64,000 nt of DNA from Candidatus Poribacteria bacterium (GTDB lineage: Bacteria; Poribacteria; WGA-4E; WGA-3G), in assembly GCA_022825665.1 (NCBI GenBank), contig JAJDWI010000149.1, positions 1 through 64,000 on the forward strand, given 5' to 3'. Positions within the stretch are counted from its first letter, which is position 1. Each line of letters opens with the position of its first letter. Below, one piece after another: positions 45,598 through 62,806 of the stretch. The position numbers and the translations under genes are program-made. The notes beneath the pieces were generated by a model. That model saw only the letters and a list, made by a program, of their open reading frames with translations. It ran no database searches and was not told the origin of the DNA.

Positions 45598-46902
45598 CTA
45601 ACGTCGCGGTTTAAAGGAAGGAATACCTGTTTTATCAAACCGTTTTTTTACCGCTTTCATTAGTTCAGGTGTAATTTCACGATAACCGTGTTCACGAGCG
45701 TATTTTTCTACACTTTTTACAACCATGCCACGTGCAAATGAGGGAACACGTTTCAATCGGGTTTGTGCAGCATCATTCCATTGTAAATCGTAATCAGGTT
45801 CTGTACCAAATGCCGTTCGTTTTTCAAACTGAACAGGTTTCTGACCTGGTTGTCCCGGTTGGTATTCACAAGATTCATCTGCAGCGAGATAGTTACCAGT
45901 CGTTGCATAAGCGCGTGCTCTACATCCACCACATACTTCTCTGAATTCACATGCACCACATTTTCCTTGTAGCATATCACGATTGCGTAAGTCATGAAAT
46001 GTTTCCGATTCATTCCACAATTTGACAAAACTCTCATCTTTTAGATTACCGACACTGACGGGTAGATATGGACACGGTGTCAGTTCACCTTCAGGACTAA
46101 TGCGACAATAATAGATGCCACACGGACAAGTTCCACTTGGATAACCTTGAAGGAATGCTGAATCCGATTGTTGTTCATAAATAAAGCGTTTGTAATGTGG
46201 TGCACATTTTGCAGCAATGAGCATTTTTCCGCTATAATCTGCTTGCAATTGGAACATCGTTTCAAGCATTTTCTCGTATTGTGTTGGGGAAATATCCATC
46301 ACCGTTTTACCTCTTCCAGTGCGTACGAGAAAATAGAGATTTAGCACTTTCGCACCTAACTGATATGCGTATTCTACTATCTCAGGGATTTCGTCATAAT
46401 TCCATTGTGTAACTGATGTTTGAACGAGGAAGTCGAGTTGTGCCCGCTTGAGTGCTTCGATTCCACCCATTGTTGCTTTCCAAGCACCTTCCATTCCACG
46501 AAACTTGTCGTGATTTGTAGGTTGAATAGAATCAAGACTTATCCCAGCACCCGTAACTCCGTGCTGTTGCATCTTTTCAACCACTTCGTCGTTTAGAAGT
46601 ACTCCGTTTGTTCCCATGACGACAAGAAAACCTGTATCTGAAGCGTATTTTGAAATCTCCAGAATATCAGGTCTTAACAGAGGTTCACCACCGGTGAGTA
46701 TAAGAAGAATATGTGGATTGATTTCGGCTATTTCATCAATTACACGAAAACATTCGGATTGTGTCAACTCTGTATCTCTATGGTAGCCTTGTGGGAATTC
46801 GTTGGTATCTACGAATCCGGCAGGAAGATAACAGTGTGTGCATTTCAAATTGCACAATCTGGTGATATTCCATGAGACTGCTTGAACTTTTGTATTTTCC
46901 AT
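45598..46902 (-). CDS. Radical SAM/SPASM protein with C-terminal PCP_red domain
   Basis: 434 aa. C17-x3-C21-x2-C24 binds the SAM cluster; GGEPLLRPDIL and a GISLD motif follow. The SPASM domain has CRISPEGELTPCPYLP, CGACEFREVCGGCRARAYA. Architecture resembles AhbC/NirJ/HemZ-like haem-precursor-modifying enzymes. A PCP_red domain (about 372-420) is fused to the C-terminus, unusual for the family. Immediately follows a CopD/HemJ-like membrane gene with no gap, which supports a haem or tetrapyrrole link, though that is inference. Confidence 0.88.
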   Translation of the reverse strand: MENTKVQAVSWNITRLCNLKCTHCYLPAGFVDTNEFPQGYHRDTELTQSECFRVIDEIAEINPHILLILTGGEPLLRPDILEISKYASDTGFLVVMGTNGVLLNDEVVEKMQQHGVTGAGISLDSIQPTNHDKFRGMEGAWKATMGGIEALKRAQLDFLVQTSVTQWNYDEIPEIVEYAYQLGAKVLNLYFLVRTGRGKTVMDISPTQYEKMLETMFQLQADYSGKMLIAAKCAPHYKRFIYEQQSDSAFLQGYPSGTCPCGIYYCRISPEGELTPCPYLPVSVGNLKDESFVKLWNESETFHDLRNRDMLQGKCGACEFREVCGGCRARAYATTGNYLAADESCEYQPGQPGQKPVQFEKRTAFGTEPDYDLQWNDAAQTRLKRVPSFARGMVVKSVEKYAREHGYREITPELMKAVKKRFDKTGIPSFKPRR

Positions 46903-47361
46903 TTAATTTTTCAATAACAATGCAAGTATAAAAACAATTAATCCTGAGAAAAGTGTTAAATGACCAAAGACAGTGATATGAATTGGTATGATAACTTTGC
47001 TTTCTGGTTGTGTTGCTTCAAGATGTCGTCTAAATAAAGAACTGTATAGTCCCCAAAAGAGTGTCATAATACCGAATGCTGTTAACTTTGCACCGGAATA
47101 TATCATATATTCGGTTTCGATTTTCATATCGTTATTCCAAGCAACTATAAAAATTACAATCCCACCTGTGAGTAAGATAATATTTATTACCACTCTGATT
47201 AGATGGCGAAATCGGTTGTGAATTGCCAATAGGTCTTGCGCTGGTAGGTTTTTCCGAACTATTGGCATTGCAATCAAGGTTGAAAAGACCACACCTCCGA
47301 ACCATATTATTACCGCTATGAGATGGGTATATCGAATTAAAAGTTCAACAAACGTCCGCAT
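46903..47361 (-). CDS. CopD/HemJ-like membrane protein
   Basis: 152 aa, four membrane helices. THLIAVIIWFGGVVFSTLIAMP resembles the haem-binding first helix of HemJ/CopD-type proteins, where a His and the W-F-G-G are conserved. HemJ is an alternative protoporphyrinogen oxidase. The gene is contiguous with a radical SAM protein. Which substrate it uses is not readable from sequence. Confidence 0.72.
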   Translation of the reverse strand: MRTFVELLIRYTHLIAVIIWFGGVVFSTLIAMPIVRKNLPAQDLLAIHNRFRHLIRVVINIILLTGGIVIFIVAWNNDMKIETEYMIYSGAKLTAFGIMTLFWGLYSSLFRRHLEATQPESKVIIPIHITVFGHLTLFSGLIVFILALLLKN

Positions 47362-47397: not shown

Positions 47398-47712
47398 TTA
47401 TATATGTTCAGATTTCTCATAGAAGTTTACACCCACATGTTCAATTTGCGCAACCATGTCCGGATTTCCTATCTGACTGAAAACAGATAAGTCAATCGTA
47501 TAGGGTAAAAGTAGATCATCAATATCGGTGTCAATTTTAGAGAGTACGCTGTGTGTTAGCCCTTCGCCGCAGAGGGTTAAGTCAATGTCAGAACCGTTTC
47601 TATATGTGCCTATGGCACGTGAACCGTACAAAATCGCCTTTTCAATCTGCGGATATTGCTTGAAAACGGTGTGTATTTTTTTAAGGGTTCGGTCTGATAA
47701 ACCGTATTTCAT
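47398..47712 (-). CDS. MNT-type nucleotidyltransferase (toxin-antitoxin pair)
   Basis: 104 aa. Minimal nucleotidyltransferase: GSRAIGTYRNGSDIDLTL carries the G-S...D-x-D motif. In MNT-HEPN pairs this protein acts as an antitoxin that adenylates the HEPN ribonuclease. Overlaps the HEPN gene by 4 bases. No gene-specific ligand can be read. Confidence 0.9.
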   Translation of the reverse strand: MKYGLSDRTLKKIHTVFKQYPQIEKAILYGSRAIGTYRNGSDIDLTLCGEGLTHSVLSKIDTDIDDLLLPYTIDLSVFSQIGNPDMVAQIEHVGVNFYEKSEHI

Positions 47713-48122
47713 TGTGTCTCTTCCTGTTTTAAAAGATCTATTTTTTCCAATAACGTCTCAAACTCGGAGAAATATATATTGAGAATTGCCGAAACTACTT
47801 CTTCTGCGGTATCCTCGTTACAGGTATGAGTAGTTAGATTGCGGTGACGAATCATTTCCATCCAAGCATCTCCGTTTTCAATTATTCCTTCTTTAAAAGC
47901 TGCACGAGTTGTGTCCCTTGAACCGTACAACTTAAAATCTTGTGCTTGCAGAAAATCTTTTAGTGTATTCCACGCTAATTCATGGGTGTATACAAATCCT
48001 TGTGCTTCTAAATCTGAAAGTTCTCGATGTCGTGCCAGTTCCACTGCTTCTTTTAGTCTCGAAAACGCCTTACGAAAACTATCAGATCTCTGTGTCCAAC
48101 GAATGTTATGATGGTTCTTCAT
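47709..48122 (-). CDS. HEPN-type nucleotidyltransferase-substrate-binding protein (putative toxin)
   Basis: 137 aa, HI0074-like. The conserved MIRHRNLTTHTCNE carries the R-x4-H ribonuclease motif of HEPN toxins. YTHELAWNTLKDFL is the conserved helix of this family. Translated ahead of the MNT partner. The upstream stretch 48123-48889 has no gene and starts with AT-rich sequence resembling a promoter. Confidence 0.9.
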   Translation of the reverse strand: MKNHHNIRWTQRSDSFRKAFSRLKEAVELARHRELSDLEAQGFVYTHELAWNTLKDFLQAQDFKLYGSRDTTRAAFKEGIIENGDAWMEMIRHRNLTTHTCNEDTAEEVVSAILNIYFSEFETLLEKIDLLKQEETQ

Positions 48123-49476: not shown

Positions 49477-50358
49477 TCAGGTATTAAAGAAATTTTGAAT
49501 TTTATGTGCAATTTCTGTGATTGCTTTGGTTGCTGGTGTATCAGGATATTCACTCAGATAAGGTGTCCCGCTGTCGTTACTAAGTGATAGTTTTGGATCG
49601 AAAGGGATTCTCCCTAATCTTATTTCGTCAAACACATGGTCAGGTGTATTCTGTGGAGAAAAAAGTGGTTCAGGTTCACCACAATGTTTACACACATAGT
49701 AAGCCATGTTTTCAACAACTCCGATCATCGGTACCTTTAGAATGTCTCTCGCCATTGTAATAGACTTTTTGACAATCAGGTGTGAAACTTCTGAAGGGAT
49801 TGTAACGACGACCACTCCACCGAGATTTGGTATAAGTTCAACCACATTTGGTAAACGATCTGATCCTGGTGGTAAATCAAGGAGAAGGTAATCCAAATCA
49901 CCCCATTCAGTGTCTCCAATGAATTCTCGTAGTGCACCTACCTCCATTGTGGTTCGCCAAGTGAAAGCATCCTTTTGCGTTTGTGCATTCCACATAACAG
50001 GTGCATCATCTTCCGCTAAAAGCAGATCCATAGAGATTATCTTTGTACCGAGAAGAGAGGTTGCTGGTAGGATACCTGACTTAGTATATTCAAGTGTTAT
50101 GTTACGAACACCCATCATTTTTGCAATTGAAGGTCCGTTGATGTCAGCATCTACAATACCAACCGAATACCCTTTCAGCGTGAGTGCAGTAGCAAGATTA
50201 GTAGTTATTGCACTCTTACCAACACCCCCTTTTCCGCTCATGACAGCGATCGTATGTTTAACTGATGACAGGCGTTTACTGAGTCGGTTTGCTTGGGCAG
50301 TTACCTGACCGATTATATTTGAACCAGCATCATCCGGCAGTTCTTTGTAGCTTTTCAC
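49477..50358 (-). CDS. Mrp/NBP35-type P-loop Fe-S carrier protein
   Basis: 293 aa ATPase of the Mrp/ApbC family, which carries iron-sulfur clusters. Deviant Walker A SGKGGVGKSA (41-50), DLPPGSD (Walker-B-like), and MIGVVENMAYYVCKHCG with the cluster-binding C223 and C226. Lacks the N-terminal DUF59 domain. Its start overlaps the stop of the PQQ-repeat gene. The neighbouring PCP_red proteins may be targets. Confidence 0.92.
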   Translation of the reverse strand: MKSYKELPDDAGSNIIGQVTAQANRLSKRLSSVKHTIAVMSGKGGVGKSAITTNLATALTLKGYSVGIVDADINGPSIAKMMGVRNITLEYTKSGILPATSLLGTKIISMDLLLAEDDAPVMWNAQTQKDAFTWRTTMEVGALREFIGDTEWGDLDYLLLDLPPGSDRLPNVVELIPNLGGVVVVTIPSEVSHLIVKKSITMARDILKVPMIGVVENMAYYVCKHCGEPEPLFSPQNTPDHVFDEIRLGRIPFDPKLSLSNDSGTPYLSEYPDTPATKAITEIAHKIQNFFNT

Positions 50359-52156: not shown

Positions 52157-54070
52157 CTATTCTGTGTTATCTCCACTGTTTGAGTTTTGATAATATTCAC
52201 CCAGTACCTCGTTTGCGAGGCTTCTACCGTCTTCAATAACCCGTGCGGCAAAATCGAGTGTAACCTCTGTGATATTTGCTTCTTGTGCGCGTTGTTCAAT
52301 ACGGGTTTGTGTAATGTTTCTCATAAAACCTTCAGGTACTAAGTTTAAGCGTTCTATTGCATCCTCAGTCCATTGCAGAGTACTTACAAAATCAACATTC
52401 GTTGTAACATTTTGTGTGTTGGTGTCGGATTGCATAGCTCTGAGTTCAGGTGCATCTTCGCGAACAGCAGCTGCTTCACCCATGCTGTCGTCTATAATCT
52501 CTGTTGCAAATGCATTCGTGATAGTGCCAATTTTCTGAGACCGGGCAGACTTTTCTATGCGTGCTTTTACATTACGTCGCATGTAACCGCGGGGTACAGT
52601 GCGTAGTGCTTTCTTTGCTTGATCTGACCATTGTAGACGGACACCGTCAAATGTTTCCTCTTCAGCAGTTCCACCTTCGTCAATAGCGATGTGTTCAAGT
52701 GAATTTTTGTCAACCATTTGGAACCGTTCCGGTGGAGAGCTACAGACAGGACATTGAACGGGTTGTTGGTTATGTGCAGCATACCCACATTCCCCGCAGA
52801 TGTATGTCTGCACAGCGTCTGATTCTAAAACTTTTTGTTCAGCGATTTCTTTGGCAACGCGTGTGAGTTTTTCTGATGCACGTTGTGGCATAATTGCTTC
52901 CATAGCCATATCTATGACACTTTCGGTGATAACAGAATGTCCGCGTTCAATTGCAAAGCGGTGTACTGCTGTCTTCGCAATTCCACGAACCAGTGGAGGT
53001 GCTTTTTCCATACGATCCATTGCCTCTTGTGTCCATACAAGGGTTTCTTCAGCTTTGACATCAATTTGTGGAAAATAGCGTTGACTTGATAGGAGTACAT
53101 TGCACGGGGCAAGTCTTAATAAGTTTTCTGCGGTGCTGCCAATATCTGTATCTTGTTCGCTATGTACTCCGATTCTACCCAATACAAGGAGCCAAGGCTC
53201 AGTTTTTCGTGTGTATTGTATAATTTTTTCGTAAGCTTTTCCATCAAGTAGAGTAATTTTCAGTTGATAATCGTGTTCTTCTTTTGCGATAGAACGGGCT
53301 ACTTCAAGATGTGACTGATATATTTTGGCAAGTCCCGTGTCAATTACTTCCTCATGGAGTTGCTCTTGTTCCTTAAATTTGAATGTTCTCGCAGCACGTT
53401 CGGTTAGGACGTTGACAACAGAATTGAATACGATATAGTGTAGATATGGATCATATACTCCAACTGCTTCCACTTGTCTGTTGAATTTTTGTCCAAGACT
53501 AATAGCAGTTTTTAAGCCAGAAAAAGATTCTGGACTCCCATCAATTCCGACAAGGATATTTCCTGATTGCTCTTCAATTGGCTCAAGGTTTCTCACGATC
53601 AACGTATCGGTTGTGATACGTCGGACGACGCGTTCACAGACTCCACCGATCAGACTATCTTTAACTGCTCCCATGCCAAGTGCACCCATAATGACCAGAT
53701 CGTAATCACTTTCTTGTATATCCTCAACCAATTTGATGTAGTGCTTACCCTCAGGCATCTTTGGTTCAAATGGAATATCAAACTTTTCGCATTTGTGTTT
53801 CATTACTTCAAGATAGGAATCCGATATGAGTTGAAGACCCATAGTGATAAGTGTATCGTGAATGCGACGTTGTTTTTCCAGTTCTACCTCATCTTGATAC
53901 TCTTCAGGCAGCGTATACTCCATCTGTTTGAAGCGAACATCGTGCATTTTTGCGGCGTAGACGTGCGATCCGACCAACTGTGAATTAAATTTCTTTGCGA
54001 ATTCTACAGCCAAGTCAATACTGGCATCGGAATAGTCTGAATTGTCAACGGGTACGTATATTTTATTCAT
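52157..54070 (-). CDS. Two UspA domains, rubredoxin-like knuckles and three PCP_red domains
   Basis: 637 aa from the ATG at 54070 (a GTG at 54082 is an alternative; GGAAAAG is upstream). Usp domain 1 (about 1-160) and 2 (170-330, with GIDGSPES), PCP_red 1 (344-394, LVWTQEAMDRMEKAPP), rubredoxin-like C425/C428 and C440/C443 (ICGECGY, CPVC), PCP_red 2 (478-530, LQWSDQAKKALRTVP) and PCP_red 3 (564-615, LQWTEDAIERLNLVP). Usp domains bind ATP or sense stress in family members. A redox- or iron-sensing hub is plausible. No comparable layout is known to me. Confidence 0.85.
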   Translation of the reverse strand: MNKIYVPVDNSDYSDASIDLAVEFAKKFNSQLVGSHVYAAKMHDVRFKQMEYTLPEEYQDEVELEKQRRIHDTLITMGLQLISDSYLEVMKHKCEKFDIPFEPKMPEGKHYIKLVEDIQESDYDLVIMGALGMGAVKDSLIGGVCERVVRRITTDTLIVRNLEPIEEQSGNILVGIDGSPESFSGLKTAISLGQKFNRQVEAVGVYDPYLHYIVFNSVVNVLTERAARTFKFKEQEQLHEEVIDTGLAKIYQSHLEVARSIAKEEHDYQLKITLLDGKAYEKIIQYTRKTEPWLLVLGRIGVHSEQDTDIGSTAENLLRLAPCNVLLSSQRYFPQIDVKAEETLVWTQEAMDRMEKAPPLVRGIAKTAVHRFAIERGHSVITESVIDMAMEAIMPQRASEKLTRVAKEIAEQKVLESDAVQTYICGECGYAAHNQQPVQCPVCSSPPERFQMVDKNSLEHIAIDEGGTAEEETFDGVRLQWSDQAKKALRTVPRGYMRRNVKARIEKSARSQKIGTITNAFATEIIDDSMGEAAAVREDAPELRAMQSDTNTQNVTTNVDFVSTLQWTEDAIERLNLVPEGFMRNITQTRIEQRAQEANITEVTLDFAARVIEDGRSLANEVLGEYYQNSNSGDNTE

Positions 54071-54105
54071 AATCTTTTCCACACTTGTCAGACAAGGTAA
54101 TGGAT

Positions 54106-54374: not shown

Positions 54375-55010
54375 TTAACTTCCAAGAAGTGTATTAACAT
54401 CCTTGCGTAGTCGTTTCATAGCAGATTTCTGATGACTATCGTAATAACCGTATATTTCACCGTCTGGCGTAACGAGAACAAACTTTCTACTATGTGGTAA
54501 CATTCCTTCGTGATATGCTGCTGCTAATTTAAATCCCTTGTTAGCCAGTTTGTAAATCTGTTCCTTATTTCCAGTTAGAAAATGCCAACGATTCTCATCT
54601 GCTCCGTATCGATTTGCATATTGTAAGAGAACATCAGTTGTATCTCTATCTGGATCAACTGTGAATGATACGAAGTTGATTTCTTGTGAGTTAAATTCCG
54701 ATTGCAGGTTTGCCATCTCCAGTGTCATTTTAGGACAAATCGTAGGACAATTTGTGAAGATAAAATCTGCAACCCAAACTTTTCCTTTTAAATCAGATAA
54801 TGTCAACTTGTGTCCCTGCTGATTTATTAAACTAAATTCTGGAACGTTAGTTGTTGCCACCTCAGGTGTTGGATCTGGTTTTTTGTTAAATACTAACCAT
54901 AAATTGAAAAGCGCAATACCTATAACTATAAGTCCTAACACAATCCAAGGTAGTGTGCTTTTTTCAATTTTTCGATCATTTTGCTTAAGGTCTACAGTCT
55001 GATTCTCCAT
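54375..55010 (-). CDS. SCO1/SenC-type copper chaperone
   Basis: 211 aa with one N-terminal membrane helix (WIVLGLIVIGIALFNLW) and a thioredoxin-like domain. Copper site CPTICP with two Cys, and His in PHSRKFVLV. Delivers copper to the CuA site of cytochrome oxidase subunit II, whose gene is in the same run. Only this one SCO gene is present. Confidence 0.93.
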   Translation of the reverse strand: MENQTVDLKQNDRKIEKSTLPWIVLGLIVIGIALFNLWLVFNKKPDPTPEVATTNVPEFSLINQQGHKLTLSDLKGKVWVADFIFTNCPTICPKMTLEMANLQSEFNSQEINFVSFTVDPDRDTTDVLLQYANRYGADENRWHFLTGNKEQIYKLANKGFKLAAAYHEGMLPHSRKFVLVTPDGEIYGYYDSHQKSAMKRLRKDVNTLLGS

Positions 55011-55055
55011 TTTAATTATGCCTACAATTTGTAGATTTTGACCTTTGCTGTATCC

Positions 55056-55400
55056 TTAGCGCTGTGTGGTGTCTACGACTTCTGCTGCTGGTTTTTCTAT
55101 AGCATTGAGTCGTGAATCCATAGTAATATCAGGCATCAACATAATTACCAGAAAAACACAGATAAGAAATGGTGTAATAACGATTGCTGCCAAAATACCT
55201 TTCTCAAACTTAAGGTGCATAAAATAAGCAGCAACTAAGATAGCCTTACCACATGCCAAACCGATGAGTAGAATACCTTTTATAACAATAGAATATTCTG
55301 GGATAGCTACTCCTACCTCAATAGCAGTTAATATGAAAAGATATAAGAAAATTAACATATACTTCGGATGTTCATTATGTCCGTTTTGAGCCATATTCAA
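55056..55400 (-). CDS. ctaF: Cytochrome c oxidase subunit IV (caa3-type)
   Basis: 114 aa with three membrane helices (MLIFLYLFILTAIEVGVAI, LIGLACGKAILVAAYFMHL, ILAAIVITPFLICVFLVIML). HLKFEKG matches the CtaF family. Structural subunit IV. Six bases after the subunit III gene. Confidence 0.85.
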   Translation of the reverse strand: MNMAQNGHNEHPKYMLIFLYLFILTAIEVGVAIPEYSIVIKGILLIGLACGKAILVAAYFMHLKFEKGILAAIVITPFLICVFLVIMLMPDITMDSRLNAIEKPAAEVVDTTQR

Positions 55401-55406
55401 TACCTC

Positions 55407-56078
55407 CTACAGTAAATAGATAAAGGTGAAAACCATAATCCAAATAAGGTCAACGAAGTGCCAATAAAGTCCTACAATTTCTACTTCGTGGTTAAACTCA
55501 GCAGTATATCTTCCCCGTAACCCATGTATCAATATAACAATCAGATATATCACACCGCCAGTAACATGTAGTCCATGGAATCCTGTGATAGCATAGAAAG
55601 TGGGACCGAAAAGGTTTGAACCAGATATAGCACCACCTTTTAACCCATGTTCAGGAATATCGGTGAGAGTTAACCCGTGTTTTATCAGGTGTGTCCATTC
55701 ATACGCCTGCAATCCAAGAAAGATTACACCTCCTAAGATAGTTAAACCGAGGAAAGTGCACATCCGAGACACGTTGCCTTTTTGAATTGACTCTAACGCT
55801 TTAACCATTGTGACGCTGCTACAAATTAGTAGGAATGTCATACCTGCGGTTAGGTTTATACCGAGTATTTCACTTGGCGGAACCCATCCAATTACACCTG
55901 CTCCAGCTCTGAGTGCGGCATAAGCTGCGAGCAAGGCACCAAAAGACATGGTATCCCCTATAAGGAAAATCCACATGCCGAGTTTGCCGAGACTATCAGG
56001 CGTTAACGATGGTTCGTATACGTCTTCAGTATGATCTAAAGTGGTAGCTTGTTCCACTATACTTAACTCCTTTTCCAA
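55407..56078 (-). CDS. ctaE: Cytochrome c oxidase subunit III
   Basis: 223 aa, seven membrane helices. GMWIFLIGDTMSFGALLAAY, TFYAITGFHGLHVTGGVIYL and EIVGLYWHFVDLIWIMVFTF with the conserved His/Glu. One of two subunit III-like genes in the operon; this one stands after the methylase insertion. Confidence 0.93.
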   Translation of the reverse strand: MEKELSIVEQATTLDHTEDVYEPSLTPDSLGKLGMWIFLIGDTMSFGALLAAYAALRAGAGVIGWVPPSEILGINLTAGMTFLLICSSVTMVKALESIQKGNVSRMCTFLGLTILGGVIFLGLQAYEWTHLIKHGLTLTDIPEHGLKGGAISGSNLFGPTFYAITGFHGLHVTGGVIYLIVILIHGLRGRYTAEFNHEVEIVGLYWHFVDLIWIMVFTFIYLL

Positions 56079-56175
56079 TTATTATTCGCTGTGGTAGACG
56101 TTGTTTGAAACCGATGGTACAAACAGAAGTCCACTTATTTATGATTCACTATAGTTCACTAATTGTTATTAAATA

Positions 56176-57045
56176 TTAATGTGTGCCGCATTGAATTCGA
56201 GCCTCAGCCATAGATGCGATCTCACTGTCAATCTCAAACCCAATGAAGTCTCGTCCTTCCTTTCGTGCTGCGATACCAGTAGAACCTGAACCCGCAAATG
56301 GATCGCAAACAACAGAACCTTCTACAGAGAAAATCCTGATTAAGTGTCGCAATAAAGGCACTGGTTTTGCAGCGATATGTCCAAATTTCTCACGAGGTTT
56401 AGGTACTGGAATCACTGTCCCTGGAAAACGATCTTTATCAACAACAGGGTCAGATACGTCTATAAGTCCAGTCTGATATTGAAGCCAGTTGTCTACGAAT
56501 GTTCCTTCGCGTGGAGACTGAGCTAAAATAATAATCTCCATCTGTGGTTTGAGTTGTGGAGTCTTTCTCCCACCTAAAGCTGTTATAATCCTCTCTTTTT
56601 CTTTATCTGGCAGATTACGTTTCTGTACGAAATGGTCTTGTTTAAATGCTTTTGCTTGACCTTCATACCTCCATGCTAACATATCCCTGATTTCAAAACC
56701 TGCGTCCTCAATTGCACTTGTTGCGCGATGCGATAATCTTGGGTGTGAAAAACAGAGAACAAATCCACCCGGTTTTATAATGCGAAACCACTGTTCAGCG
56801 ACCGGTTTTAGGAATCTATATAAATTATGACCTTGTGCTCGGTCAAATTTCATTCCTACAGGAAGTCCGCCAATTACTCCTTTTTTTTGTCTGGATCTAA
56901 TTCGCTGTGTATTCCATCTATCGTCCATTCCATCAAGGAAATAGGGCGGATCAGTTAAAATAAGAGACACACTTTGTGGTGGAATCTTAGACATTCCTTT
57001 GCGGCAATCTATACATTGAATCCAAGAATCACCACTATTATTCAT
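56176..57045 (-). CDS. Orphan DNA methyltransferase inside the oxidase operon
   Basis: 289 aa. TDPPY catalytic motif at 31-35 precedes DPFAGSGSTG at 248-257, the beta-class order. This differs from the methylase at 31.4 kb (SAM motif first). No restriction partner. It sits between the CPAC-motif small gene and the second subunit III gene, both oxidase-type, and appears to be an insertion. DPPY does not settle N4-C versus N6-A. Confidence 0.92.
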   Translation of the reverse strand: MNNSGDSWIQCIDCRKGMSKIPPQSVSLILTDPPYFLDGMDDRWNTQRIRSRQKKGVIGGLPVGMKFDRAQGHNLYRFLKPVAEQWFRIIKPGGFVLCFSHPRLSHRATSAIEDAGFEIRDMLAWRYEGQAKAFKQDHFVQKRNLPDKEKERIITALGGRKTPQLKPQMEIIILAQSPREGTFVDNWLQYQTGLIDVSDPVVDKDRFPGTVIPVPKPREKFGHIAAKPVPLLRHLIRIFSVEGSVVCDPFAGSGSTGIAARKEGRDFIGFEIDSEIASMAEARIQCGTH

Positions 57046-57083
57046 TGTTACACCAATTTCCTTTATTAGCTGGTGTATGCGTG

Positions 57084-57311
57084 TTAAGTCTTCAAGTTCC
57101 TATTAGTCCGTCGATAAAGATAGAATACACTTCCTCCGATGATCCCGAATACAGTAAACGGCATTGACATCATAAATAACACACTCCAGTTAAAACCTCT
57201 TGCAATAGGTTCATTTAGGTCTTTACAAGCAGGACATGCTTCAAGTGACTGTGGTAGAAATGATATTACTAAGCCTATTACCAGAATCCAAAGGACAATA
57301 TGTCGTATCAT
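57084..57311 (-). CDS. Small secreted or membrane protein with CPAC motif
   Basis: 75 aa from the ATG at 57311, which has GGAG six bases upstream, inside the end of the previous gene. Signal-like helix (IVLWILVIGLVISFLP), then EACPACKDLN, then a C-terminal membrane helix (FMMSMPFTVFGIIGGSVFYL). The CPAC may bind copper or a disulfide partner, plausible next to an oxidase. Unknown family. Confidence 0.65.
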   Translation of the reverse strand: MIRHIVLWILVIGLVISFLPQSLEACPACKDLNEPIARGFNWSVLFMMSMPFTVFGIIGGSVFYLYRRTNRNLKT

Positions 57312-57322
57312 GCGTAACTCCA

Positions 57323-57916
57323 TTATGCGAAATATACCAGAAAGTATAGGATTGGCCACAACGCGACCACATAAATCCAATATATCGTACATGTTTCAAC
57401 ACCTATATGACTATCTGATGAAAACCTACCAGAAAATGCCATACCGATAACAATTGCTAACCATATTACTGCCCCTAACACGTGAATAGCATGACATCCT
57501 ATCAGTACATAAAAGATAGCTCCATAAACACCGGACTGTAGTGTTAATCCTTTGCCAATAAGTTGTACCCATTCACTTCCTTGAATTATCAGAAATGCCA
57601 GTCCTAAAGTACCTGTGAGAATCAGCAAATTTTGGCATAGTTTTACCCTATCTAATTGAATAGACCGAAGTGCTCGAAATATCGTGTATCCACTGATGAT
57701 TAACAATAGTGTATTGAAACCTGTTACTATACGTGGCAGTTCAATGTCAGCATGCGATAACGGGGGCCAAGTAACATTTCCCATCCGAAAAACCAGAAAT
57801 GCCCCTATCAAACCGGAGAATAACATTGTCTCAGATCCGAGCAAAATTAATACTGCCAATTTAGCATTACTTAGGGGACGATTATCGGTCATTTCAAATT
57901 CAGTCTGTGCCATCAT
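57323..57916 (-). CDS. Cytochrome c oxidase subunit III-like protein
   Basis: 197 aa, five membrane helices: AVLILLGSETMLFSGLIGAF, LLLIISGYTIFRALRS, AIFYVLIGCHAIHVLGAVIWLA and VETCTIYWIYVVALWPILYFL. Shorter than ctaE and less similar to canonical subunit III; it may be an accessory subunit or a degenerate paralogue. Overlaps the 88-aa gene by 4 bases and the following CPAC gene by design (TAATG region). Confidence 0.85.
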   Translation of the reverse strand: MMAQTEFEMTDNRPLSNAKLAVLILLGSETMLFSGLIGAFLVFRMGNVTWPPLSHADIELPRIVTGFNTLLLIISGYTIFRALRSIQLDRVKLCQNLLILTGTLGLAFLIIQGSEWVQLIGKGLTLQSGVYGAIFYVLIGCHAIHVLGAVIWLAIVIGMAFSGRFSSDSHIGVETCTIYWIYVVALWPILYFLVYFA

Positions 57917-58179
57917 TTGGAAACTCTACTTGCTCCTCTTCTTTTGAATCTGTCAACGATGTATTGAATTACCATCTCATAGAAGGCAGCACCGATTAAT
58001 GATATACCGATTATACCCGCGATGATTGTAGCAATCACTGATACGATGGTCTTTATGACTGGAGGTGCATCTAAACCCAAAACAAAACCTAACATAGTTA
58101 TCGCAAACATACTAAGAAAAAGTAGTCCTAATATCAAACCAACTTTTCTATTTCGACTTCTTTGTTCTTGTTCTTTCAT
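57913..58179 (-). CDS. Small membrane protein in the oxidase operon
   Basis: 88 aa, two hydrophobic helices (LILGLLFLSMFAITMLGFVL, TIVSVIATIIAGIIGISLIG) and basic ends. No family recognised. Flanked by ctaB and the subunit III-like gene, overlapping the latter. Confidence 0.7.
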   Translation of the reverse strand: MKEQEQRSRNRKVGLILGLLFLSMFAITMLGFVLGLDAPPVIKTIVSVIATIIAGIIGISLIGAAFYEMVIQYIVDRFKRRGASRVSK

Positions 58180-58197
58180 TTTTCCTCCTATGATAGA

Positions 58198-59124
58198 TCA
58201 TATTTTATCTATTGCCATCATGAGAAATATCAATGGAAGATACAATAATGATGCGTGTAGGACATATCTTGCTGCTTTAAGAGAACTTGTTTTTTGAAAA
58301 TAGATACCACTTATAAGGAACATTCCACCAATCAATAGTGCAGAAATAAAATAGATTCCCCCTGCAATGTTGAATAAGGTTGGAAGTAGACCGACCCCAA
58401 ACAATGCCAAACAGTTGATGACAACCTGATGACGTGTACTTGTTCCATCTGGATGTATTACGGGTAATAATTTTAATCCTGCATTTGCATAATCTTCACG
58501 ATAGATATATGCTATTGCAAGAGAATGTGGTAGTTGCCATAGAAAGAGAATTGCAAACAATACCCAGACTGATCCTGTAAGTGTATTTTGTGCTGCAACC
58601 CATCCAACAACCGGTGGTAATGCCCCCGGTATAGCACCAACCAGAGTGCATAATGACGTGCTTCGCTTCATCGGGGTATATGCAAATAGATAACTTACTA
58701 CAATAAGTGAGATGACAAAACCGCTTAATGGATTGACAATAAACGTTAGATATAGCATTCCGCCACATGTTAAAATCACACAGAACAGCAACGCTTCAGT
58801 AGCATGTAATCTACCCGCGGGTAATGGTCTTTGCTGTGTTCTGGACATCAGGGAATCAATATCTCTTTCTAAATATTGATTAAGACCTAATACCCCGCCT
58901 GCAGTTAATCCTGAACCGATTAAAGTATGTAGAAACAGTATCCAATTAACCGCGCCCTGTGTGCTGAGATAGAATCCAGCAGCGGTAGTAATCAATATCA
59001 TCAGGACCATACGAGGTTTAGTGAGTTCAATATAATCCTCTACCCGCTGAACCAAAGCTGATGTTTTTGTCTGAGAGTTTGCTGCATCACTGTTATTTGG
59101 TAATGCTGCTGTGTTAAATGACAT
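58198..59124 (-). CDS. ctaB: Protoheme IX farnesyltransferase
   Basis: 308 aa, UbiA-type prenyltransferase with eight or nine helices. ELTKPRMVLMILITTAAGFY and NQYLERDIDSLMSRTQQRPLP (first Asp-rich motif) are diagnostic; PLPAGRLHATEAL follows. Converts haem b to haem o for the oxidase. Nine bases after the haem A synthase gene. Confidence 0.95.
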   Translation of the reverse strand: MSFNTAALPNNSDAANSQTKTSALVQRVEDYIELTKPRMVLMILITTAAGFYLSTQGAVNWILFLHTLIGSGLTAGGVLGLNQYLERDIDSLMSRTQQRPLPAGRLHATEALLFCVILTCGGMLYLTFIVNPLSGFVISLIVVSYLFAYTPMKRSTSLCTLVGAIPGALPPVVGWVAAQNTLTGSVWVLFAILFLWQLPHSLAIAYIYREDYANAGLKLLPVIHPDGTSTRHQVVINCLALFGVGLLPTLFNIAGGIYFISALLIGGMFLISGIYFQKTSSLKAARYVLHASLLYLPLIFLMMAIDKI

Positions 59125-59133
59125 TTTGTAATC

Positions 59134-60093
59134 TCATTCGGTTACCAGTGTAGTATTGACCGGTATATTTTCAGTAATTGTTTCTTTAGTAAATCTATAT
59201 AGTTTCAATGTCAAAACAAAACTACTTACTAACATGAGAGCACCAACTGCTACATGTGAAGTTGTTATAATATCTGTAAGTAGAGTTGATACAGCTTCTC
59301 CAAATACAGTTAGTTTTGTAATGTAGGCACCAAACCCAAGCAGTAACTGAACTAAGAGCAATCCAAATAATATCAACGGTAGTTGCAAACCAAAATCCTG
59401 AGAAACCTCACCCAAACTTAGAAAACGTCTCATCAACAAGAATATATGCAGTGCTACCAAGAAAGCAAATAAAAGGTGTGCGTCAAGTCTGTTACCTGTA
59501 TGCCGTAAAATTGCCCCGAAAATGAGTTGAATATATATCAGACAAGTCGTAATCAAACTTAATCTGCGCAGTTTCTTTGCTGTAACGTTATCAACATTCG
59601 TTTCAGACTGGTGCTGATTTTCAATCCAATCAGACGATGTAAATAAACATATCCCGCACAAAAGTGCAAAGAATGCTTGTGCCAAACATGCATGTAATAT
59701 AGCAAAATTGGGATTGAGTTCTGTTACACGAAGTCCTCCGAGAACCCCTTGTACACTGACCCCGATTAGAGCGGTTATTCCGAGCCATATTACCCACTTA
59801 CGAGTTTCCTTAACAAATAACATGACTAACAGAACTATCGTCAACATCCCAACCAATGAACCCATTAAACGATGGCTATGCTCATATAGGATACCACCTA
59901 CCATCTCTGATAGCGGATACAGAAACATATTATATCCGAAGGTTGTGGGCCAATCCGGGACTGCTAATCCTGATTCAGTGCTTGTTACAATACCTCCAAT
60001 TACGATAAGTAAGAATGTTGCCCCTGCAGTGATGAGTGCAATCCGATGGAGCCAAGGACTATAACTGATTTGCTTCATCATACTAAATGCCAC
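59134..60093 (-). CDS. ctaA: Heme A synthase (CtaA/COX15)
   Basis: 319 aa, eight membrane helices. TSTESGLAVPDWPTTFG, EHSHRLMGSLVG, HACLAQAFFALLC and LRHTGNRLDAHLLFA carry the haem-liganding His residues. Converts haem o to haem a, implying an aa3-type enzyme. The GTG at 60093 is taken as start; an ATG four codons in is an alternative. Confidence 0.93.
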   Translation of the reverse strand: MAFSMMKQISYSPWLHRIALITAGATFLLIVIGGIVTSTESGLAVPDWPTTFGYNMFLYPLSEMVGGILYEHSHRLMGSLVGMLTIVLLVMLFVKETRKWVIWLGITALIGVSVQGVLGGLRVTELNPNFAILHACLAQAFFALLCGICLFTSSDWIENQHQSETNVDNVTAKKLRRLSLITTCLIYIQLIFGAILRHTGNRLDAHLLFAFLVALHIFLLMRRFLSLGEVSQDFGLQLPLILFGLLLVQLLLGFGAYITKLTVFGEAVSTLLTDIITTSHVAVGALMLVSSFVLTLKLYRFTKETITENIPVNTTLVTE

Positions 60094-60158
60094 AGAGGTG
60101 ACCTATGTTGATAGGTGTGGTCTAATCTACACCTATCATTCATCAAGTCTTGACTCAA

Positions 60159-62084
60159 TTAATCTCCTGCACTCGCGGGTGCATGTTCAGGCTGTGCCTG
60201 TGGTATCCAATCAGATTCTTCGCCGGGAACACTGTATTCATAAGGACCACGATAGACAGTGGGGATCTGTGCAAAATTGCCATGTGGTACAGGTGTCGGA
60301 GCTTCCCATTCTAATGTGGTGACGTTCCACGGGTTCTTCTCAGCGACTTTACCAAGTTTCATACTCCAGAAGAAGTTGAATACGAGTATCAATTGTGCAA
60401 AACCGAGAGTGAATGCACTCATTGTAATAAAGATGTTCATTCCCTCAAACCCTTGCAAGAAATCATAAAACTGTGGATTAGCAATACGGCGCATATGTCC
60501 ACCTACACCGAGGATATGCATTGGGAAGAATGTGCAGTTGAATGCGATAAATGTTATCCAAAAATGTATTTTGGATAATGTATCGTTCATATAACGTCCA
60601 TACATTTTCGGGTACCAGAAAACAATACCACCGAACATAGCAAACAGACTTCCACCAAAAACGACATAGTGTATGTGTGCTACGATATAGTATGTATCAT
60701 GTATGTATATGTCAACTGGTGTGTTTGCCATATAGATTCCGCTAAGTCCACCTATTACAAACATAGATACAAAAGCGATTCCGTGAAGCATAGGTGTCGT
60801 AAATCGTATTGAACCGCGGAACATAGTTCCAAGCCAGTTGAATGTTTTTATGGCGGATGGAACAGCAATAAGCATTGTTGTTGTCATGAAGAATGATCCC
60901 ATTCCTGGACGCATTCCACTTTGGAACATATGGTGTCCCCAAACAATCCAACCTAAGAATGCTATTGCAATCATAGCGTAGACCATAGATCGGTACCCGA
61001 ATATCGGTTTACGTGAGTTAACTGCGATCAATTCGGATGCAATTCCCATCCCCGGTAATATAAGTATATATACCTCTGGATGACCAAAGAACCAGAACAG
61101 ATGTTGCCATAGCAGCGGATCACCGCCACCTTCAGTTGTCGTGGTAAAGAATGTCGTTCCCGCAAGTCTATCAAAGATAAGTAATGCTAAAGCGGATGAT
61201 AGGACTGGGAAAGCAAGTAATAACAAGATGGCAACGATGAAGAGTGACCAGATAACCAATGGCAATCTAAAGAATGTCATTCCTGGGGCGCGCATGTTGA
61301 TCACTGTTGTAATATAGTTTATTGATCCAACCAATGAGGAAAAACCTTGTATCAACAAACTGATCGCCCATAAGTTTTGCCCCCATCCAACATCTGTCCA
61401 TTGCGGATCAACAGATAATGGAGCATATCCAGTCCATCCTGCTCCAGCATGCCCTCCCGGAACAAAAAATCCTGCTGCCATGACAATTGCTGCAAGTACA
61501 GCAAGCCAAAAAGAGAGCATATTCAGGATAGGAAATGCCATATCTCTTGTGCCAATCATTAGCGGAATCAAGAAATTTCCAAACGCACCTACCAGTATCG
61601 GAACAACGACAAAAAACACCATTATAGTGGCATGCATCGTAAATAGCATGTTATATGTTTTGTCTTCAATTACTCCGTTTGGAAAGTGAGTTTCCATCAA
61701 CTCCTCTTTTTCCGATTCGAAAATCTTCTCCCACCTTTCATCATTTTTTGTAACAACTTCTCCATCCTCAATATATTGTTCAGAAGCTCCAATTATAGGC
61801 AATGGTTCTCCTGGATATGCCAGCTGCCACCTAAAGAGCAGCGCAAGCCCTCCACCGACAAATAACATGATCAATCCGTATATCAGGAACTGCTTTCCGA
61901 TCATCTTGTGGTCAAGTGAGAAGATATATTTACGAATAAAACTCTCTTCATGATGGTGTTCATGCTCATGCTGTCCATCATCGTCATGCTCATGTGTATG
62001 TTGTGGTGTATCGTTATCGTCATGTGCATGTTCGTGTTGTTCATCATCGTCATGCTCATGTGAAATATTTTCATTTTCTTGCAT
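60159..62084 (-). CDS. ctaD: Cytochrome c oxidase subunit I with His-rich N-terminal extension
   Basis: 641 aa. Canonical haem-copper ligands: FFGHPEVYILILPG, WGHHMFQSGM and HDTYYIVAHIHYVVFGG; twelve helices. A-type proton-channel residues look present. The first ~50 residues are an unusual His/Asp/Glu-rich repeat (HEHDDDEQ, HAHDD, HTHEHDDDGQHEHEHHHEE) that precedes the first helix and could bind copper or zinc. Subunit II follows upstream. Confidence 0.95.
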   Translation of the reverse strand: MQENENISHEHDDDEQHEHAHDDNDTPQHTHEHDDDGQHEHEHHHEESFIRKYIFSLDHKMIGKQFLIYGLIMLFVGGGLALLFRWQLAYPGEPLPIIGASEQYIEDGEVVTKNDERWEKIFESEKEELMETHFPNGVIEDKTYNMLFTMHATIMVFFVVVPILVGAFGNFLIPLMIGTRDMAFPILNMLSFWLAVLAAIVMAAGFFVPGGHAGAGWTGYAPLSVDPQWTDVGWGQNLWAISLLIQGFSSLVGSINYITTVINMRAPGMTFFRLPLVIWSLFIVAILLLLAFPVLSSALALLIFDRLAGTTFFTTTTEGGGDPLLWQHLFWFFGHPEVYILILPGMGIASELIAVNSRKPIFGYRSMVYAMIAIAFLGWIVWGHHMFQSGMRPGMGSFFMTTTMLIAVPSAIKTFNWLGTMFRGSIRFTTPMLHGIAFVSMFVIGGLSGIYMANTPVDIYIHDTYYIVAHIHYVVFGGSLFAMFGGIVFWYPKMYGRYMNDTLSKIHFWITFIAFNCTFFPMHILGVGGHMRRIANPQFYDFLQGFEGMNIFITMSAFTLGFAQLILVFNFFWSMKLGKVAEKNPWNVTTLEWEAPTPVPHGNFAQIPTVYRGPYEYSVPGEESDWIPQAQPEHAPASAGD

Positions 62085-62146
62085 CTTTATTCTTACTCCT
62101 TTCGCGACAGCAAAGTTGAATTGCTTGTTATTGCCGCTCCAGTGCC

Positions 62147-62806
62147 TTATTCAGACCACTGTTCCTTGACCCAGGCATCATATTCTTCTTGTGTGTGTAC
62201 ATGAAGAAATCCGACCATAGTTGTGTGTCCAAATCCACAGAGTTCGGCACACGGTATTTCATACGTTCCTGGCTTTGTTGCCTGAAACTTGATGTTATCA
62301 AGAAACCGATTCGGTAATGCGTCCTGTTTCAATCGTAAATTAGGTATAAAGAAACTATGAATCACATCTTTTGAGGTTAGAATTATCTGTATGAGTTTAT
62401 TCTCAGGTACATGTAATTCGTTTTCTAATTCCAGATCATCTTCAGTTCCTATTTCATTATCCGGACCAGGATATATCATATACCAGTTAAACTGTTCTCC
62501 TCGGACTTGAACAACATAATCAGGATTATCTGGTGCAGACTTCAGATTATTCCATTGTGGAAAACTCAACATTGCCAAGCCAAACACAATTACCGTAGTT
62601 GCTGTTGTCCAGATGATTTCAAGTTTCGTGCTTCCTTCAATGTATTCAGCACGGTGTCCTTCTCGGTGACGGTACATTATCAGGAATGCAATCAGCGTAC
62701 CCATCACAAGCACAAAAACTACCACAGTAATCCAATAAATAAGTGCAAAAAGTGAATCAACACCTTGTGCATACTCTGATATATTTTCTGGAAGCCATCC
62801 TAGCAT
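62147..62806 (-). CDS. ctaC: Cytochrome c oxidase subunit II
   Basis: 219 aa. Two N-terminal helices (SLFALIYWITVVVFVLVMGT, IIWTTATTVIVFGLAML), then the CuA domain with RGEQFNWYMIYPGPDN and CAELCGFGHTTM. No cytochrome c domain is fused, so it is not a classical caa3 subunit II. GGAGG lies 5 bases before the ATG. Confidence 0.95.
   Translation of the reverse strand: MLGWLPENISEYAQGVDSLFALIYWITVVVFVLVMGTLIAFLIMYRHREGHRAEYIEGSTKLEIIWTTATTVIVFGLAMLSFPQWNNLKSAPDNPDYVVQVRGEQFNWYMIYPGPDNEIGTEDDLELENELHVPENKLIQIILTSKDVIHSFFIPNLRLKQDALPNRFLDNIKFQATKPGTYEIPCAELCGFGHTTMVGFLHVHTQEEYDAWVKEQWSE

Follow-up and report, generated by a model that had tools for sequence, protein, structure and literature searches.

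Two universal stress protein (Usp) folds in tandem are known from several solved proteins (TTHA0350, 3ab8; Rv2623, 3cis; UspE, 5cb0), and the known tandem Usp matches in the PDB consist of Usp domains only, with lengths of 268–319 residues. A rubredoxin-like domain with a CxxC...CxxC site is part of rubrerythrin (3mps, 1nnq), and PCP_red is the C-terminal domain of BchB/ChlB (2xdq, 2kru), solved also in stand-alone form (2l09). Among the radical SAM enzymes with a SPASM domain, AhbD acts in haem b synthesis and NirJ2 in haem d1 synthesis. AhbD performs the conversion of coprohaem to haem, the same step that HemQ accomplishes with peroxide (PMC7242693), and in Haloferax the HemQ-type PitA and AhbD are two coprohaem decarboxylases, serving aerobic and anaerobic growth, respectively (PMC5746218). 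The phototrophy-related markers in present use include the PCP_red family (PF08369; PMC12815261). The gene studied here, located in a 64,000-nucleotide stretch of a Candidatus Poribacteria contig (hereafter, the window), joins Usp, PCP_red and rubredoxin-like domains in one protein, which is quite possibly, if still short of probably, an accessory part of an oxidase-linked tetrapyrrole (haem) maturation set. All the individual domains have been known already; the architecture and the gene set are undescribed in the literature searched, which lay mostly outside subscription journals and contained no paper that describes either of them or links Usp with rubredoxin or PCP_red.

In the ORF listing, the gene is covered by a minus-strand ORF (52157–54082) starting from GTG and encoding 641 amino acids. 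The ATG at 54070 gives 637 residues, matches in the alignment the homologue starts M-[YF]-K-K-I-[YF]-V-P-V-D-N-S and has a weak ribosome-binding sequence (GGAAAAG) just 5' of it, while the alternative GTG, 12 bases upstream, adds four residues. Two stretches of the product matched the Pfam Usp family (PF00582; 114.8 bits at a cut-off of 24), which was also recognized in 30/30 homologues, and three stretches matched PCP_red (97 bits at a cut-off of 32.5), each single copy exceeding 32.5 bits in the profile search of the genome. The segment between residues 423 and 450, where CxxC pairs begin at positions 425 and 440, remained below the cut-off of RUBY_RBDX (PF21349) in the window copy (20.7 vs 26.5 bits). 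The rubredoxin-like assignment is nevertheless sound at the family level, because 29 of 30 family members match this model at E≤1e-3 (best E 1.9e-9) and the Cys4 segment alone aligns with the rubredoxin domain in a rubrerythrin of known structure (YIC..CGY.A...P..CPVC..P.E.F; E 3.3e-6). The ORF, the Pfam matches and the homologue starts thus bear out the order of domains and the coordinates proposed in an earlier note on this DNA (Table 1).

Table 1. Features of the window considered in this work (positions in the window; all on the reverse strand).
Feature	Position	Strand	Basis or remarks
Gene studied, Usp-Usp-PCP_red-rubredoxin-PCP_red-PCP_red, 637 aa	52157..54070	-	ORF and Pfam
Usp domain 1, residues 3-160	53591..54064	-	G129-x2-G132-x9-G142 motif, D9
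Usp domain 2, residues 171-327	53090..53560	-	full ATP motif G298-x2-G301-x9-G311-S312, D177
PCP_red domain 1, residues 346-388	52907..53035	-	46.2 bits
Rubredoxin-like domain, residues 423-450	52721..52804	-	invariant C425, C428, C440, C443, G429, F450
PCP_red domain 2	52508..52630	-	34.4 bits
PCP_red domain 3	52250..52372	-	37.2 bits
Degenerate-PCP_red protein, 137 aa	44417..44830	-	coiled coil predicted by eye (N-terminal half); invariant C69, H71, C90
Radical SAM + SPASM + PCP_red enzyme, AhbD/NirJ2-like	45598..46902	-	conserved CxxxCxxC and SPASM cysteines
CopD-like membrane protein	46903..47361	-	weak similarity to HemJ family UPF0093; abuts radical SAM gene
Small CxxC...CxxC + PCP_red protein, 178 aa	48890..49426	-	extra invariant Cys in CPF motif
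Mrp/ApbC-type ATPase	49477..50358	-	GKGGVGKS
Cytochrome oxidase operon: SCO1, COX4, COX3, COX3-like, UbiA-family (CtaB-type), CtaA-like, CtaD, CtaC	54375..62806	-	upstream of the gene studied

The N-terminal half of the protein resembles the known tandem Usp proteins in having two Usp folds and the ATP-type G-2X-G-9X-G(S/T) motif, but differs from them in a His-rich conserved insert within each Usp domain and in the PCP_red, rubredoxin and two further PCP_red domains that follow. The AlphaFold2 model (pLDDT 74.7 and pTM 0.51 with a 30-sequence alignment) supports the predicted Usp folds, as it was matched by Foldseek to tandem Usp structures, including 3cis and 3ab8, with E-values of about 1e-12 to 1e-16 and TM-scores of up to 0.83 by target length; chloride cotransporters, which also appeared in this search, were set aside for their low TM-score. 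The likeness to rubrerythrin does not extend to its diiron four-helix domain, which is absent. With BchB/ChlB only the 45-residue PCP_red is common, whereas neither the nitrogenase-like core, looked for by profile searches in the proteins of the set, nor a link to photosynthesis was seen. The BchB equivalog model TIGR01278 gave 52 bits instead of the 490 required, covering only the last ~55 model positions, and a BchB or phototrophy gene was ruled out.

The full-length protein was found in 65 of 84 Ca. Poribacteria genomes, with one copy per genome, and 58 of 95 Methylomirabilota genomes contained a match, mostly of full length. A scan of named genomes yielded 248 relatives, those closest to the window copy belonging to Candidatus Poribacteria. 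Among the 80 relatives kept, 25 came from outside this phylum and displayed 53–59% identity over nearly the full length; their carriers were Methylomirabilota/NC10, Rokubacteria, Calditrichia (Calditrichota), Rhodothermia, Marinimicrobia, Acidobacteria and Planctomycetota, with one further contig labelled Deltaproteobacteria. Full-length homologues in so many phyla rule out a one-off fusion or an assembly error, and the level of identity across phyla, together with the four Cys residues kept in every sequence (see below), shows that the architecture is not a product of chance. The earlier note had regarded the layout as one without a described counterpart; it turned out to be common, while neither a described protein of this kind nor a known function for it was found in the literature searched. 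The protein tree mostly tracks phyla, the exceptions including the Deltaproteobacteria contig (L111), which nests within Calditrichaceae for this protein, owing either to misbinning or to transfer.

The Cys residues C425, C428, C440 and C443, correctly named in the earlier note as a four-Cys site, are invariant in 84/84 distinct sequences, and no homologue that has lost them was seen. C323 in the second Usp domain is likewise invariant, as are D9 and D177, the Asp residues of strand 1 of the two Usp domains. The nucleotide motifs of both Usp domains are retained across the family: the one at residues 298–312 is an exact G-2X-G-9X-G(S/T) motif, and the one at residues 129–143 ends with GG in the window copy and with GS in many homologues. 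Conservation is strongest in the helical inserts of both Usp domains, where 31 of 55 and 30 of 51 positions, respectively, are invariant across phyla. These include H36, H43, M50, H71 and M77 in the first insert (residues 36–90) and H211, H239 and H254 in the second; H303, in the nucleotide loop of the second domain, is invariant as well. Judging from the alignment, the conservation of the inserts and the kept nucleotide motifs suggest a specific function for the Usp pockets.

The neighbourhood of the gene was compared in 32 loci by clustering adjacent ORFs; the counts are raw ones and come from loci that are not independent of each other in phylogeny. Mrp-type ATPases were found near the gene in 25 of the 32 loci, the radical SAM/SPASM/PCP_red protein in 22, the small CxxC...CxxC-PCP_red protein in 20 and the CopD-like membrane protein in 10. 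Outside Poribacteria (25 loci), Mrp was present in 20, the radical SAM protein and a terminal oxidase in 17 each and the small PCP_red protein in 15; several of the loci without a terminal oxidase gene are short contigs. The adjoining oxidase genes differ: cytochrome oxidase operons are found in Poribacteria, Rokubacteria, some Methylomirabilota and Acidobacteria, a cytochrome bd-like subunit with cytochromes c in Rhodothermia, Calditrichia and NC10, and some loci possess both kinds. In Poribacteria of genus g2, the radical SAM and Usp-rubredoxin genes are far apart or on different contigs. Within the window, the cytochrome oxidase operon also contains an N6/N4 DNA methylase gene (56176–57045, minus strand), and a HI0074-type nucleotidyltransferase/substrate-binding pair (47398–48122, minus strand) separates the small PCP_red gene from the CopD-like one.

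The PCP_red proteins are inherited together. Among 59 relatives, the Poribacteria genomes bearing the Usp-rubredoxin gene possess 5–7 PCP_red matches each, located in the proteins of the set, and those without it have none, except for three (G004, G029 and G055), PCP_red being nearly confined to this gene set in the genomes checked. In G004 and G029, the gene is absent and other members of the set are kept; assembly gaps are likely, since G029 is also devoid of COX1. G055 encodes a reduced Usp-Usp protein without the C-terminal half, beside radical SAM-PCP_red and bd-like oxidase genes. In 20 genomes of other phyla, the Usp-rubredoxin, radical SAM and small PCP_red proteins recur, linked or unlinked, all three kinds being present though unlinked in a Planctomycete (G097). 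The degenerate-PCP_red protein has full-length homologues in 8 of these 20 genomes, including Rokubacteria and a Planctomycete, and none in the 24 searched genomes lacking the full-length Usp-rubredoxin protein. The set comprises the tandem-Usp/rubredoxin protein, the AhbD-like radical SAM protein, the small Cys4 protein and, in some lineages, the coiled-coil protein. Extra proteins with three and two PCP_red copies were noticed in two genomes bearing the Usp-rubredoxin gene (G091:C270:2169-2858 and G084:C137:38143-38631, respectively).

By similarity, the radical SAM partner belongs with AhbD and NirJ, from which it differs in the additional C-terminal PCP_red domain. In three homologues the best models were AhbD or NirJ2 (298–347 bits), models of peptide maturases such as PqqE and mycofactocin giving 120–163 bits for the same protein. 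The score against the AhbD model TIGR04545 was 329 bits, under the equivalog cut-off of 500, and the enzyme remained below the NirJ2 cut-off as well. Eleven cysteines, from the CxxxCxxC motif and the SPASM domain (C17, C21, C24, C233, C259, C277, C315, C318, C324, C327 and C345), are kept in 20/20 partners. This enzyme is nearly always the sole AhbD-like protein in Poribacteria with the Usp-rubredoxin gene, and a search of its own genome revealed no second one at E<1e-50. An f3 Poribacteria genome without PCP_red encodes an AhbD-like protein near the cut-off (G041:C506:61017-62039; 485 vs 500 bits). Nearly all Poribacteria bearing the gene encode both HemH and HemQ, the latter being found also in 53 of the 58 matching Methylomirabilota, and in several Poribacteria of families f2 and f4 the HemQ gene is near the cluster. 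Basic haem synthesis therefore does not depend on the set, and the view that the radical SAM enzyme simply takes the place of HemQ is unsupported. Since HemQ usually co-occurs, a second route operating at low oxygen is possible, and so is haem modification for particular oxidases.

For the maturation role proposed above, the most likely arrangement would be as follows. The Usp-rubredoxin protein would be a cytoplasmic accessory subunit with a tandem Usp base, probably ATP-binding and perhaps dimeric, docking on the co-inherited AhbD/NirJ-like radical SAM/SPASM enzyme, which carries a PCP_red tail itself; the PCP_red modules may be common docking or tetrapyrrole-handling units. Its putative rubredoxin-type Fe(Cys)4 site could then serve as a one-electron donor to that enzyme, which would modify haem or a haem precursor for the adjoining terminal oxidases, with Mrp as a candidate ATPase for the hand-over of iron-sulfur clusters or cofactors. 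What the sequences show are the domains, the invariant residues, the order and co-inheritance of the genes and, by similarity, the enzyme class of the partner; from these we infer that the protein binds ATP and iron, docks and transfers electrons, and that the set has a tetrapyrrole substrate and a connection with oxygen. In the narrowest version, the enzyme would turn coprohaem into haem without oxygen, as an alternative to HemQ when oxygen is scarce; as to the exact reaction, our confidence is clearly lower than for the general role in tetrapyrrole metabolism. As a tentative and rather doubtful extension, we put forward that in about eight phyla three or four PCP_red proteins act with Mrp, and with Usp as a dedicated enzyme subunit, either to make haem without oxygen or to modify it in a new way for terminal oxidases. 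If the proposed role is right, a universal stress protein would serve as a component of machinery that makes cofactors and not as a factor of the general stress response, and many uncultured phyla would make respiratory haem, or modify it, in a way yet to be characterised. PCP_red, in turn, gains a place outside photosynthesis, being found here in clusters linked to oxidases, in lineages that are not usually taken for phototrophs.

Alternatively, the protein could be a sensor of redox state, oxygen or iron, in which the rubredoxin site would read out the redox state and the two Usp domains would pass the signal to the neighbouring oxidase and cytochrome genes or regulate them. The retained nucleotide motifs and the adjoining oxidase genes are consistent with it, and in Nitrospira marina, Usp proteins, possibly of this family, whose genes adjoin respiratory clusters increase when oxygen is low and have been suggested to be regulators (PMC8115632). 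We consider this explanation unlikely, though deserving of weight: the Pfam search found no DNA-binding, kinase or other output domain in the protein, the linkage is tightest to the radical SAM enzyme and the other PCP_red proteins rather than to the oxidases, and the conservation of the Usp inserts resembles a specific site more than a general sensor scaffold. Of the redox- or iron-sensing scaffold envisaged in the earlier note, the redox scaffold agrees with the presence of a rubredoxin-like site, three PCP_red domains and an electron-needing radical SAM partner; sensing, that of iron included, gained no specific support. The consistent partners, i.e., the AhbD/NirJ-like radical SAM enzyme, small PCP_red proteins, Mrp and terminal oxidase genes, favour instead a role in tetrapyrrole metabolism, in maturation or biosynthesis.

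These same partners could also act without any tetrapyrrole, the Mrp, Cys4 and radical SAM proteins maturing an oxidase or bd-like subunit by way of an Fe-S cluster, copper or a side chain. The frequency of Mrp in the loci and the proximity of SCO1, DUF420, DUF983 and CopD-like genes would suit such an assembly or metallocluster factor. It is, however, improbable in our view, as the radical SAM subfamily is nearest to tetrapyrrole enzymes, not to peptide or sulfatase maturases, and cytochrome oxidases exist without the set: Poribacteria of family f3 have COX1 and lack the PCP_red set, hence the set is not a strict requirement for cytochrome oxidase, and an obligatory cytochrome oxidase assembly factor is unsupported. 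A DPOR-like ATP-driven reductase of a tetrapyrrole double bond, with Mrp in place of BchL and PCP_red proteins in place of the catalytic partner, is suggested by the GKGGVGKS P-loop of Mrp, which belongs to the wider NifH/BchL superfamily, and by the PCP_red of BchB, but appears very improbable, given the missing BchN/BchB core and the fact that no cysteine is conserved in ≥90% of Mrp homologues, which makes a bridging Fe-S cluster unlikely.

One more conserved neighbour, of ~108–159 amino acids and without a Pfam match (L110:9626-9967, plus strand, and relatives), is encoded directly 5' of the Usp-rubredoxin gene in Rhodothermia, Calditrichia and Marinimicrobia.
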